Source: Alphaproteobacteria bacterium
GTDB taxonomy: Bacteria; Pseudomonadota; Alphaproteobacteria; UBA2136; UBA6156
DNA: 44,825 bases
Direction: 5' to 3'
Assembly (NCBI GenBank): GCA_027483385.1
Contig: JAIXUT010000105.1
Location: 1 to 44,825 of the forward strand
The notes under the pieces are model-generated. The model was not told the DNA's origin. It worked only from the letters and a program-made list of their open reading frames with translations, and searched no databases. Below are positions 18,800 to 23,345 of this stretch, piece after piece (the stretch's first letter is position 1; each line of letters begins with the position of its first letter). The position numbers and the translations under genes are program-made.

Positions 18800-19183
18800 A
18801 TGGTTGACAAAAATATGCGAATCCTGGTGGTCGACGACGCCCTCACCATGCGGCGAATCGTCATCAACCTCTTGCGCCAGCTGGGCTTTACCAACATGAA
18901 TGAGGCCGATGACGGCACCACAGCTTGGGAAAAGTTACAAAGTGAAACCTTCGATTTAATCATTTCCGATTGGAATATGCCCAAAATGACCGGCATCGAT
19001 TTGCTGCGCAAAGTGCGGGCCGATGCCAAATATGGCCGCACACCTTTCATTATGGTCACGGCCGAGGGCAAGCGCGAGAACGTAATTACCGCAGTGCAGG
19101 CCGGGGTAAGCAATTATATTGTCAAGCCCTTTAACGCCGCGACCTTGAAGGAAAAGCTGGTGAAGGTTGTTGGTGATTTTTAG
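18800..19183 (+). CDS. cheY: Chemotaxis response regulator CheY
   Basis: 127 residues, a single receiver domain: acidic pair in VVDDALTMRRIV, phospho-acceptor Asp in IISDWNMPKMTG, switch Thr in IMVTAEGK, and Lys in YIVKPFN. Phospho-CheY binds FliM at the motor. First gene of cheY-cheZ-cheB-cheA. ATG 18815 (MRILVVDD) is an alternative start five residues later. Confidence 0.93.
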   Translation: MVDKNMRILVVDDALTMRRIVINLLRQLGFTNMNEADDGTTAWEKLQSETFDLIISDWNMPKMTGIDLLRKVRADAKYGRTPFIMVTAEGKRENVITAVQAGVSNYIVKPFNAATLKEKLVKVVGDF

Positions 19184-19222: not shown

Positions 19223-19927
19223 ATGACAAATAAAATCAGTTTAATGGAGCGCATCGCGCTGTTGGAACAAACCCAGCAAGGCCAGATGATTCCCGCCGAG
19301 GAAGTCTGGAAGCTTCTTGATAGCGTCAAGGAAATGTTCGGCGAAAAGACCGACGGCGTGCATGGCCACAGCAGCGAGCTATACCGCGAATTGGGTGAGT
19401 TGGCCAAATTTATCAACAGCGCCAAAAAAGAATTGCAGGAAGTCAAGGCCAGCAATATTGCCGACGAGCACTTGCCCAACGCGACCAATCACCTGGACGC
19501 AATTGTTCAGATGACCGAGCAGGCTACGGGCCGAATTATGGATGAATGCGACCAAATCGGTAATTTTCATAACGACGTAAAAGAGCGGTTGTTATCGGCC
19601 GATCCCGCCATCGATCCGAATATTCTCATGGGGGTAGATGATGCGTTAAACCAAGCGCAAACCAGCGTGACCCATATTTTTGAGGCCTGTAACTTTCAAG
19701 ATATTACCGTGCAGCGCGTGCAAAAGGTGGTGAAGGCCTTGCAGGAAATTGAACGCCAGGTGCTGCGGATGGTGGTGGTGTTTGGGCTGGTGGAAAACCA
19801 GAGCAAGCTCGATGAAGCCACCCGCCAGGAACTGACCGAAGATGTGGCCTTGTTGCAAGGCCCGCAGCTGGCAGGTCAAGGCCTCGAGCAGGACGATATC
19901 GACGCTATTCTGGCCAAATTGTTATAG
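19223..19927 (+). CDS. cheZ: CheZ-family phosphatase of phospho-CheY
   Basis: 234 residues, largely helical. The CheZ core motif is visible: helix with TGRIMDECD, then EACNFQDITVQRVQKVVKAL, whose Gln is the catalytic residue that orients water for CheY dephosphorylation. The last residues (QDDIDAILAKLL) form the amphipathic CheY-binding tail seen in CheZ proteins. It lies 40 bp after cheY and 9 bp before cheB. Confidence 0.88.
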   Translation: MTNKISLMERIALLEQTQQGQMIPAEEVWKLLDSVKEMFGEKTDGVHGHSSELYRELGELAKFINSAKKELQEVKASNIADEHLPNATNHLDAIVQMTEQATGRIMDECDQIGNFHNDVKERLLSADPAIDPNILMGVDDALNQAQTSVTHIFEACNFQDITVQRVQKVVKALQEIERQVLRMVVVFGLVENQSKLDEATRQELTEDVALLQGPQLAGQGLEQDDIDAILAKLL

Positions 19928-19936
19928 TTAAAAAAT

Positions 19937-20980
19937 ATGGCGAACCCAATCCGCGTTCTGGTGGTTGATGACAGCACCTTCATGCGCGGTGCGCTGGTGC
20001 GGATGATTGAAAAAGATTCTCGCTTTAAAGTGGTTGATATTGCCGTGAACGGTGAAGAAGGCGTGAAAAAGGCCGCCGAATTAAAGCCTGACGTGATTAC
20101 CATGGATATCGAAATGCCTGTCATGAACGGTATCGATGCCTTGCAGGCCATCATGCGCACCAACAAAACACCGGTGGTGATGGTCAGCACATTAACCGAA
20201 GCAGGCGCCGCAATAACCTTAAAGGCGCTGGAACTTGGCGCGGTGGATTTTATTCCCAAATCGCTCAGCGACAAAGACAAAAACATTTTTAAGGGTGCCG
20301 AGGAAATTCATGCCAAGCTGGCCGCCGCCGCAGGGGTGACCAACGGGCGGGCCGATAAAGTGGCAGCGTTGCCCAAAACTTCTGTACCAAGCATTGCGCC
20401 CAGCACCATCAGCCGCGTGAATGCCCGGGTGGTACTGATTGGATCCTCTACGGGCGGGCCTAAAGCGCTGCAAGTGCTGCTTTCTCAGCTGCCCAACAAT
20501 CTGCCCGTGCCGGTGGTGATTGCTCAGCACATGCCGCCCGATTTTACTCTGGCACTGGCCAAACGGCTGGATGAATCTACGCCCCCTGCGGTGGTGGAAG
20601 CCAAAGCTGGTGACGTGTTGTTGCCAGGGAAAATCTACATTGCCCCCGGCGGTAAGCATTTGCGCCTGACCCCTACCGGAATCACAATTGACGATGACAA
20701 GGGCGAAAGCCCCTACAAGCCGAGCGTGGACGTGTTGGCCGAAAGCGCACGGCTGCTGTTTAACAAGCAAGTGCTGGCCGTAATGCTGACGGGCATGGGC
20801 GCCGATGGCGCCAAGGAATATAAAAAGTTGAAGGATTTAGGCGCCTATATCATCGCCCAAGACCAAACCAGCAGCGTGGTGTACGGCATGCCCAAAGCGG
20901 TGGCGGAACTTGGCGGTGTGAACGAAGTTCTGGCGCTCGATAAAATTGGCCCACGGGTGCGCAGCTTGTTGGGTGTTTAG
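19937..20980 (+). CDS. cheB: Chemotaxis protein-glutamate methylesterase CheB
   Basis: 347 residues. Receiver domain (1-120) with VVDDSTFMRG, phosphosite Asp in ITMDIEMPVMNG and PKSLSDKD, a short linker, then the methylesterase domain with catalytic Ser in IGSSTGGPKAL, His in VIAQHMPPDF and Asp in MLTGMGADGAKE. It removes methyl groups from chemoreceptors for adaptation. No cheR methyltransferase gene is in the window. It ends 148 bp before cheA. Confidence 0.95.
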   Translation: MANPIRVLVVDDSTFMRGALVRMIEKDSRFKVVDIAVNGEEGVKKAAELKPDVITMDIEMPVMNGIDALQAIMRTNKTPVVMVSTLTEAGAAITLKALELGAVDFIPKSLSDKDKNIFKGAEEIHAKLAAAAGVTNGRADKVAALPKTSVPSIAPSTISRVNARVVLIGSSTGGPKALQVLLSQLPNNLPVPVVIAQHMPPDFTLALAKRLDESTPPAVVEAKAGDVLLPGKIYIAPGGKHLRLTPTGITIDDDKGESPYKPSVDVLAESARLLFNKQVLAVMLTGMGADGAKEYKKLKDLGAYIIAQDQTSSVVYGMPKAVAELGGVNEVLALDKIGPRVRSLLGV

Positions 20981-21128: not shown

Positions 21129-23345
21129 ATGAGCGATATGGATATGGCTGGCGATGAAATGCAGGAAATCCTGCAGGAATTCTTTACCGAGGCCGATGAA
21201 AACCTCGATACGCTGGAGCAAGATTTAATTAAGCTGGAAGCCCTGAGCGCCGAAGGCGTGGGTGGTACTGATAAGGAAACTGTCGACCGCATTTTCCGCA
21301 TGCTGCACACGCTAAAGGGCGGTGCGGGGTTTTTGGGGCTGGAAAAAATTGCCAAGCTGGCCCATGCGGGTGAAAATCTGCTCGATGAAGTGCGCAACGG
21401 CAAGGTGCAAATCGATAAACCCGTGATGGACGCCCTGCTGCTGACCATCGATGGCCTCAAGCAGCTGCTGAATTGCCAGAAAAACGGCGAAGACGACAGT
21501 GAGGTCGATTTTACCGAACTGCGCGCGAGCCTGGAAGCCTTGGCCAAAGGCGAGGCGCCTGCCACAGCCCCTGCGGCCGCACCTGCGCCCATCGCCACAG
21601 TGGCGCCAGCTGCCGCCAAGCCAACGGCTGTGGCTGGCCCAATGGTGAATGAAGAACTGCTGGCCAGCGTGCTGAGTGATACCACCCTCGACCCTTCCCG
21701 CGATAAAGAAGCTACCCCGCCAGCAGGGCCCCCAGCAGAGATAATGATTAACGAGGATTTGTTGGCGAGTGTTCTGAATGATGAGACGCTCGACCCCAGC
21801 AAGGATAAAGAAGCTTTACCCGCAGGCCCAATGGTGAATGCCGAGTTGCTGGCCAGTGTGCTGAACGATACTACGCTCGACCCCTCCCGCGATAAAGGCG
21901 AGGAAGGTGCAATTCCAGCCCAAGCGCCAACAATACCTGCACCAACGCTGAAGCAGCCGCCCGCCACCGACCAACGCAAGGCTGGCGAGGATCGCCGGCA
22001 AGCCCCCCGCCGTAACGAGGAAGGCGGTACAGAAACCATTCGGGTGGAAACGGCCCGGCTGGATAAGGTGATGAACCTGGTCGGCGAATTGGTGTTGGCC
22101 CGCAATACCCTGATGCGGCAGCTTAACTTGCCCGAAGCCAAAAAGGCGCTGGAAAAACTTGAAAATGCGCCGATGATTTACGGCACGATCGAGCAATTCA
22201 GCCGCGTGACCCAAGATATCCAGATGAGCGTGTTAAGCACCCGCATGCAGCCCATTAAAAAAGTCTTTGATAAAATTCCCCGCCAAGTGCGCGAGCTGAA
22301 AACCCAGCTGGCCAAGGAAGTGAACCTGATGGTTGAGGGTGAGATGACGGAAGTCGATAAGACGTTAGTCGAAGAACTGGCCGACCCGATGGTGCACATG
22401 ATTCGCAATGCGCTCGACCACGGTTTGGAAGGCCCCGCCGAGCGCGAAGCGGCTGGCAAACACCCGGAAGGTACCCTGATGGTGCGCGCCTTTTACGAAG
22501 GCAATAACGTGGTCATTCAGGTGCAAGAAGATGGCCGTGGTATCGACCCTGAAAAAATCAAAAAAATTGCCCTTAAAAAAGGCGTAATCACCGAAACCGC
22601 CGCCGCCGCGATGACCGATGCCGAAGCAATTCGGCTGATTATGGCGCCGGGCTTTTCCACCGCCGAAACCATTACCGATGTGAGTGGCCGTGGGGTGGGG
22701 ATGGACGTGGTGAACACGAAAATTAACAACCTGCAGGGCAGCATTGAAATCCGTAGCGAGCTGGGCCTTGGTACCTGTTTTAGCATCTATATGCCGCTGA
22801 CCTTGGCGATTGTGAATGCATTAATTGTGGGGAGTAATGCGGAAGGGTTTGCCATCCCGATTGGGGATATTGCCGAAGTGATTAAATACCGCGGTGAGGG
22901 GCTGCACAAGGTAAACGAACAGGATATTATTGAACTGCGCGGCGAGCCGCTGCCGCTTTACTACTTGGCCAAATTAACCCGCGATGGTTACCTCCCCATG
23001 GCGCGGCAACTAAAGACGACCGACCAAAACTTTGCCTTAGCACCTTCAGAAAATCTGTCGCTCGACGACCTCGACCGCGTGACCCGGGTTCACGCACCCG
23101 AAGGGTTAGGCAAGGCCAACCCCGACAGCGCCTTTGTGGTGGTGGTGCGCGACGGCAGCAACGCGTTGGGGTTGGTTGTCGATGAACTGCTCGGTCAGGA
23201 AGAGGTGGTGGTGAAGCCTGTCACCCAGATGTTCGAATTCCATAAGGCCATCAGTGGTGCCACCATCACGGGCGACGGCAAGGTGCACATGATTTTGGAC
23301 GTGCCAACGATGCTGAAAGATTTATCGGGCAGCATCGCCCGCTAG
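21129..23345 (+). CDS. cheA: Chemotaxis histidine kinase CheA with a repeat-containing linker in place of P2
   Basis: 738 residues. P1 Hpt domain with phospho-accepting His60 in MLHTLKGGAGFLGL; then an Ala/Pro-rich linker (150-300) with three tandem copies of a 23-residue unit (172-194, 206-228, 235-257) instead of a recognisable P2 CheY-binding domain; P3 dimerisation (RVETARLDKVMNLVGELVLARN region is the start, near 300); P4 kinase with MIRNALDHGLE, DGRGID and SGRGVGMDVV; P5 CheW-like domain from about 560 with an insertion of roughly 45 residues before VVVVRDGSNALGLVVDEL. It phosphorylates CheY and CheB in receptor arrays. AAGGGG lies 8 bp before the ATG. Confidence 0.95.
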   Translation: MSDMDMAGDEMQEILQEFFTEADENLDTLEQDLIKLEALSAEGVGGTDKETVDRIFRMLHTLKGGAGFLGLEKIAKLAHAGENLLDEVRNGKVQIDKPVMDALLLTIDGLKQLLNCQKNGEDDSEVDFTELRASLEALAKGEAPATAPAAAPAPIATVAPAAAKPTAVAGPMVNEELLASVLSDTTLDPSRDKEATPPAGPPAEIMINEDLLASVLNDETLDPSKDKEALPAGPMVNAELLASVLNDTTLDPSRDKGEEGAIPAQAPTIPAPTLKQPPATDQRKAGEDRRQAPRRNEEGGTETIRVETARLDKVMNLVGELVLARNTLMRQLNLPEAKKALEKLENAPMIYGTIEQFSRVTQDIQMSVLSTRMQPIKKVFDKIPRQVRELKTQLAKEVNLMVEGEMTEVDKTLVEELADPMVHMIRNALDHGLEGPAEREAAGKHPEGTLMVRAFYEGNNVVIQVQEDGRGIDPEKIKKIALKKGVITETAAAAMTDAEAIRLIMAPGFSTAETITDVSGRGVGMDVVNTKINNLQGSIEIRSELGLGTCFSIYMPLTLAIVNALIVGSNAEGFAIPIGDIAEVIKYRGEGLHKVNEQDIIELRGEPLPLYYLAKLTRDGYLPMARQLKTTDQNFALAPSENLSLDDLDRVTRVHAPEGLGKANPDSAFVVVVRDGSNALGLVVDELLGQEEVVVKPVTQMFEFHKAISGATITGDGKVHMILDVPTMLKDLSGSIAR
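21636..21899 (+). repeat. Three tandem coding repeats in the CheA linker
   Basis: Units at 21642-21710, 21744-21812 and 21831-21899 encode MVNEELLASVLSDTTLDP..., MINEDLLASVLNDETLDP... and MVNAELLASVLNDTTLDP..., each followed by S(R/K)DK. Units 1 and 3 also share the preceding GP. The DNA has diverged by synonymous changes (for example unit 2 uses ttg gcg agt gtt against ctg gcc agc gtg), so the protein repeat looks maintained rather than newly duplicated. Spacing between units is 34 and 29 residues. Confidence 0.9.

Follow-up and report, generated by a model that had tools for sequence, protein, structure and literature searches.

How does a CheA kinase that lacks the P2 domain find CheY efficiently? 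P2 is missing in more than half of CheAs (PMC10782961). The locus described here lies in a 44,825-nucleotide stretch of alphaproteobacterial DNA (the window), whose cheA encodes three copies of a 23-residue unit in an Ala/Pro-rich linker between P1 and P3. The original prediction read these units as possible docking peptides for CheY and CheB that would replace a folded P2; a conserved linker array of this kind would offer a concrete and testable answer.

Domain organization of the window CheA

Besides the domains listed in Table 1, Pfam assigned HATPase_c to aa 419–558 of the protein and CheW with its best stretch at aa 660–731. The domain order Hpt, H-kinase_dim, HATPase_c and CheW, together with PDB and Foldseek matches to CheA, identifies the protein as a CheA kinase; a Foldseek search of its predicted structure against the PDB returned CheA and other kinases. 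Another Hpt-bearing protein of the genome (C139) was considered as a CheA and rejected, since phmmer gave it a match to CheY only, and a weak one.

Table 1. Chemotaxis genes of the window and the features of its CheA.
Feature	Position	Strand	Basis
cheY, likeliest partner	18800..19183	+	PF00072 E 4.9e-30; conserved gene order; close to E. coli CheY
cheZ	19223..19927	+	Pfam; C-terminal tail
CheZ C-terminal tail GLEQDDIDAILAKLL, FliM-like CheY-binding peptide by sequence	19880..19924	+	Sequence comparison
cheB, receiver and methylesterase, second candidate partner	19937..20980	+	Pfam
cheA, 738 aa, P1–repeat linker–P3–P4–P5, without P2	21129..23345	+	ORF, Pfam, PDB and Foldseek matches
P1 (Hpt), aa 13–112, phospho-acceptor motif LHTLKGGAGF	21165..21464	+	PF01627 E 8.3e-19; motif read in the sequence
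Unit 1 MVNEELLASVLSDTTLDPSRDKE, aa 172–194	21642..21710	+	Repeat comparison, unit profile; AlphaFold helix 175–182
Unit 2 MINEDLLASVLNDETLDPSKDKE, aa 206–228	21744..21812	+	Repeat comparison, unit profile; AlphaFold helix 209–216
Unit 3 MVNAELLASVLNDTTLDPSRDKG, aa 235–257, best conserved	21831..21899	+	Repeat comparison, unit profile, alignment; AlphaFold helix 238–245
Arginine-rich patch, DRRQAPRR region, aa 284–296, directly N-terminal of P3	21978..22016	+	R289, R290, R294 and R295 nearly invariant
P3 dimerisation domain (H-kinase_dim), aa 302–370	22032..22238	+	Pfam PF02895

Pfam detected no P2 or CheY-binding domain in the window CheA, which thus departs from the five-domain CheA layout, and no P2 in any of 21 aligned array-bearing CheAs. 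AlphaFold2, supplied with an alignment of 20 relatives, modelled P1, P3, P4 and P5 as folded domains with moderate confidence; in the full-length model, aa 143–311 were mostly below pLDDT 50, i.e., a disordered linker. Within it, one short helix was predicted per unit, exactly at the units and with a small bump in confidence (unit pLDDT about 50–59 for CheA alone). The original prediction of a missing P2 is therefore upheld: the Pfam results on the window CheA and the 21 CheAs, together with a linker that AlphaFold renders disordered apart from the unit helices, rule out a hidden folded P2.

The absence of P2 is common and has already been described (PMC10782961). The window protein has the same P1, P3, P4 and P5 domains without a P2/CheY-binding domain as the CheAs of that survey, and is a variant of the P2-less CheA, no new kind of system. 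The survey sorts CheAs by domain, and its main text contains, by word search, none of the words “motif”, “repeat” and “peptide”, so that linker motif arrays appear to lie outside its coverage. No paper on repeat motifs or motif arrays in CheA linkers was found in the open-access literature searched. Compared with CheAs of the E. coli/T. maritima type, the unit array takes the same chain position as P2 and presumably does the same job; however, P2 is a single folded domain, whereas the window CheA has several separate helices in a linker that AlphaFold predicts to be disordered.

Conservation and evolution of the repeat units

The best self-alignment of the linker scored 124, whereas 500 shuffles averaged 33 (sd 5.7) and never exceeded 66, which establishes the three 23-residue units that had been read from the sequence. 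The synonymous divergence noted between their DNA copies was also borne out: pS was 0.48–0.72 and pN 0.08–0.23 at an identity of 48–57 out of 69 nt, the changes being mainly silent. A pS far above pN between the copies indicates that the protein sequence is being kept, and because of this silent divergence Tandem Repeats Finder reported no repeat at the DNA level. In each unit, an amphipathic helix with an N-cap, (V/I)N-x-(D/E)-LL-x-x-V, leads into a D-x-x-L turn. Among solved structures, the only hit to the unit was a designed protein, matched by chance (E 0.61), and in the window's genome, at E-values up to 10, the matches were the three CheA copies, with none outside CheA.

A profile of the unit (A1) matched 18 out of 18 genomes sampled from the window's order, in 10 out of 10 genera, with 2–4 copies; in the lone genome with a single match, CheA is truncated by a contig edge, and units are present in each CheA linker of the order that is assembled far enough. 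Elsewhere in the class, of which 385 genomes were sampled, three more (G196, G075 and G290) have 3–4 copies, all in CheA linkers. As the profile was made from these same sequences, the E-values it gives them are not independent, and the weight of the result lies in the spread across genera and the specificity within the window's genome. The core common to the entire group is (V/I)(N/D)x(D/E)LLxx(V/I)xxDxxL, in short LLxxVxxDxxL; the extension DPSRDK after the core is found in the family members closest to the window.

Unit 3 keeps its LL and L unchanged in all 21 aligned CheAs, down to 53% identity. The mean majority-residue fraction was 0.59–0.63 in the units versus 0.37–0.46 in the spacers, and LL, D and L of the units hardly vary. 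These data bear on the simplest alternative, that the repeats are functionless low-complexity filler of the linker. The Ala/Pro-rich composition and the varying copy number fit such an explanation, but the silent-site divergence with a conserved protein sequence, the occurrence in 18 out of 18 genomes and 10 out of 10 genera, and the invariant LL and L speak against it, so that filler, already disfavoured, is barely credible.

In 13 out of 15 proteins, the copies were more alike to each other than to the copies in any other genome, a pattern which indicates that copies within one CheA change in concert. Spacers were duplicated along with the units in L045, L080 and L134, which indicates that copies come from recent tandem duplication and become homogenised. 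The CheA linker of L045 has three units with an exact 49-residue period including the spacers, a recent tandem duplication. The CheA of L033, the public record of which is titled Pseudomonadaceae, is 73% identical to that of the window, and its linker is the same as in a genome of the window's genus (G002); the name of the record is probably wrong.

Comparison of the units with FliM and CheZ peptides

The original prediction likened the units to the CheY-binding peptides at the FliM N terminus and the CheZ C terminus. Both kinds of peptide are, as the units are, short acidic N-capped amphipathic helices, and scans of the window's ORFs gave a weak generic signal. With the unit profile, the CheZ tail and the FliM N terminus scored as high as the scanning windows ranked 37 and 93 out of 30,399, their best scanning windows sharing the N-cap register; with a FliM profile, the three units ranked 59–280 (p 0.002–0.009 per scanning window). 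The units of deeper order members (VNAELLAEIE) were unranked by the FliM profile scan.

Against shuffles, this signal vanished. With a joint FliM and CheZ profile (LSQDEIDALL-like), 17 out of 17 array-bearing linkers scored no better than their own shuffles (p 0.13–0.87), and the comparison of FliM with the window-type unit by hhalign was not significant (E = 0.17). Taking profile scans, shuffles and hhalign together, the window-type unit was not significantly similar to FliM, to CheZ or to the second unit described below. The FliM and CheZ peptides also have no counterpart to the LDPSRDK half of the unit. The specific resemblance that had been proposed was therefore not supported; by these comparisons, the likeness is that of a generic acidic amphipathic helix and is not evidence of shared function.

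AlphaFold was also applied to an artificial chain joining CheY, CheB and the P1-linker part of CheA, in which the units reached a pLDDT of about 44–53, compared with about 50–59 in CheA alone (shallow alignment). The chain was a read-through translation from cheY to cheA of the relative L043, with stops read as Ser and cheZ out of frame, and it was judged by pLDDT alone. The units gained no confidence beside CheY and CheB, an outcome that neither supports nor refutes docking.

FliM-like arrays in other CheA proteins

A second large group of CheAs carries 2–4 copies of a different unit, with the consensus ITDDEFEALLDQLHGKG, between P1 and P3. Its profile (A5) matched 39 out of 299 sampled Pseudomonadota genomes, with 2–4 copies each, mostly in CheA-sized ORFs; the CheAs of L102, L103, L108, L120, L127, L159–L170, L172 and L173 carry 3–4 of these units in tandem. 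A unique layout, as suggested by the remark that no described CheA was known to have it, is not supported in view of this finding, and the proposed search of other CheA linkers had a divided outcome: the window unit recurred in all 18 genomes of the order and in the three class genomes, but many other CheAs bear the ITDDEFEALLDQLHGKG unit instead. No folded P2 was seen on inspection of the ITDDEFEALLDQLHGKG-bearing linkers (as opposed to a Pfam scan). The two groups therefore share 2–4 short helix-like units in a P1–P3 linker with no folded P2 seen; they differ in the sequence of the unit, which in the ITDDEFEALLDQLHGKG group is FliM-like by profile and in the window type is not.

The resemblance of the ITDDEFEALLDQLHGKG unit to the FliM sequence SQDEIDALL reached an hhalign E-value of 1.1e-4 over TDDEFExLL/DQxEIDsLL, and with the FliM/CheZ profile all 19 linkers of this type beat their shuffles (p 0.0005–0.02). 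In the genomes with ITDDEFEALLDQLHGKG CheAs, FliM starts with LLSQDEIDALLHGV, and four CheZ tails recovered from genomes of this group read QD(D/E)VDDLLSSLGF. The same FliM/CheZ profile also selected the DDIxAVLCF helix inside P2 of P2-bearing CheAs (p 0.0005–0.014 in four out of five); in E. coli, the DDIxAVL helix of P2 belongs to the CheY-binding face. Judged from sequence, the repeat-linker layout is not unique to the window's order, and the docking idea has real support in the ITDDEFEALLDQLHGKG group.

No paper naming the ITDDEFEALLDQLHGKG motif was found in the literature searched, although linker arrays, especially those of the ITDDEFEALLDQLHGKG group, may have been described before. 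A parallel array with a FliM-like unit suggests a common solution missed by domain databases because its parts are too short. Further alphaproteobacterial CheA linkers without a visible P2 (L023, L024, L029, L111, L114 and L027) have one or two other candidate helices, PGEVSxxELExAF or FPVATELLEEFEAAT.

Proposed receiver docking and alternative functions of the array

The best explanation of the array, in our view, is that the units are docking sites for CheY and CheB working in place of P2; we predict binding at even odds, on the basis of analogy and position. The units would be short linear docking motifs, set in a disordered linker at the site which the folded P2 occupies in other CheAs. 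Each unit would capture a receiver domain beside P1, that of CheY first and that of CheB second, and several copies per chain, doubled by the dimerisation of CheA, would concentrate response regulators locally and so offset the missing P2. We infer binding itself, the identity of the partner as CheY or CheB and a role for multivalency from the following observations.

The array sits between P1 and P3, with no P2 found in 21 array-bearing CheAs; the units are conserved beyond the spacers, present across the order and restricted to CheA in the window's genome; and each forms one helix in a disordered linker. The copies are kept alike, as expected if all of them face one partner surface, although recent duplication would equally give alike copies within one CheA. 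The CheAs with FliM-like ITDDEFEALLDQLHGKG arrays, also P2-less as far as seen, add a parallel by analogy. Three points count against docking: none of FliM, CheZ and the ITDDEFEALLDQLHGKG unit resembles the window unit significantly; a FliM-like helix leaves the conserved second half, DxxLDPSRDK, unexplained; and since CheAs without P2 are the majority (PMC10782961), a replacement is not strictly needed.

The main rival is a tether: the units would fasten CheA, or the receptor array as a whole, to a protein that serves as localisation factor or scaffold, as in Vibrio, where a CheA linker region (LID) between P2 and P3 binds ParP (PMC5706961, PMC7534058). The LID, compared here by description, is likewise a functional interaction region within a CheA linker, but it needs ParP. 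The AIF domain of ParP, which binds CheA and the array, is CheW-like; in the window's genome (89% complete), no more than two proteins have the CheW domain (PF01584), CheA itself and a short ORF of CheW size, and this search found no ParP. ParP itself is an unlikely partner and a scaffold other than ParP is possible; overall, we consider tethering unlikely.

The gene order cheY-cheZ-cheB-cheA is largely kept among relatives, and nearly all of the array-bearing genomes examined have cheZ in the operon with cheA. The units might accordingly bind CheZ and so bring the phosphatase to the array, or their partner might be a different non-receiver chemotaxis protein. In favour of this alternative, one form of E. 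coli CheA recruits CheZ; an order member (L044) with the array and with cheZ not adjacent to cheA counts against it, and it seems distinctly unlikely. Very unlikely is action within CheA, by docking on P1, P4 or a neighbouring subunit: amphipathic helices between P1 and the kinase core could restrain the mobile P1, but unit pLDDT values of about 50–59 in a disordered linker imply no confident contact in the full-length model, and an intramolecular clamp has no obvious need for several copies kept alike.

Receiver docking may extend beyond the window's order. At somewhat less than an even chance, we suggest that in several Pseudomonadota lineages the folded P2 has been replaced by arrays of bare docking helices in a disordered linker, which arose with differing sequences (FliM-like in one group, LLxxVxxDxxL in the window's order) and would give a multivalent and tunable capture of CheY and CheB in which copy number, in place of a domain, would set the rate and branching of phosphotransfer.

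Additional conserved elements of CheA and FliM

The arginine-rich patch before P3 is common to array-bearing CheAs and stands at the same place in L035–L049; contact with a membrane, a nucleic acid or an acidic partner is possible. The FliM proteins of the order (L055–L068, L070 and L071) have an extra conserved N-terminal element, (S/T)EEELLxEWQNMA, before the usual LDQxEIDSLLG. This element matches the CheA unit in the same register (hhalign E 0.03, per-window fractions in the scan 0.0002–0.01), a weak likeness that is suggestive at most. FliM of another alphaproteobacterium (L054) carries two copies of a related element, DDxVAAEWEAMAG.
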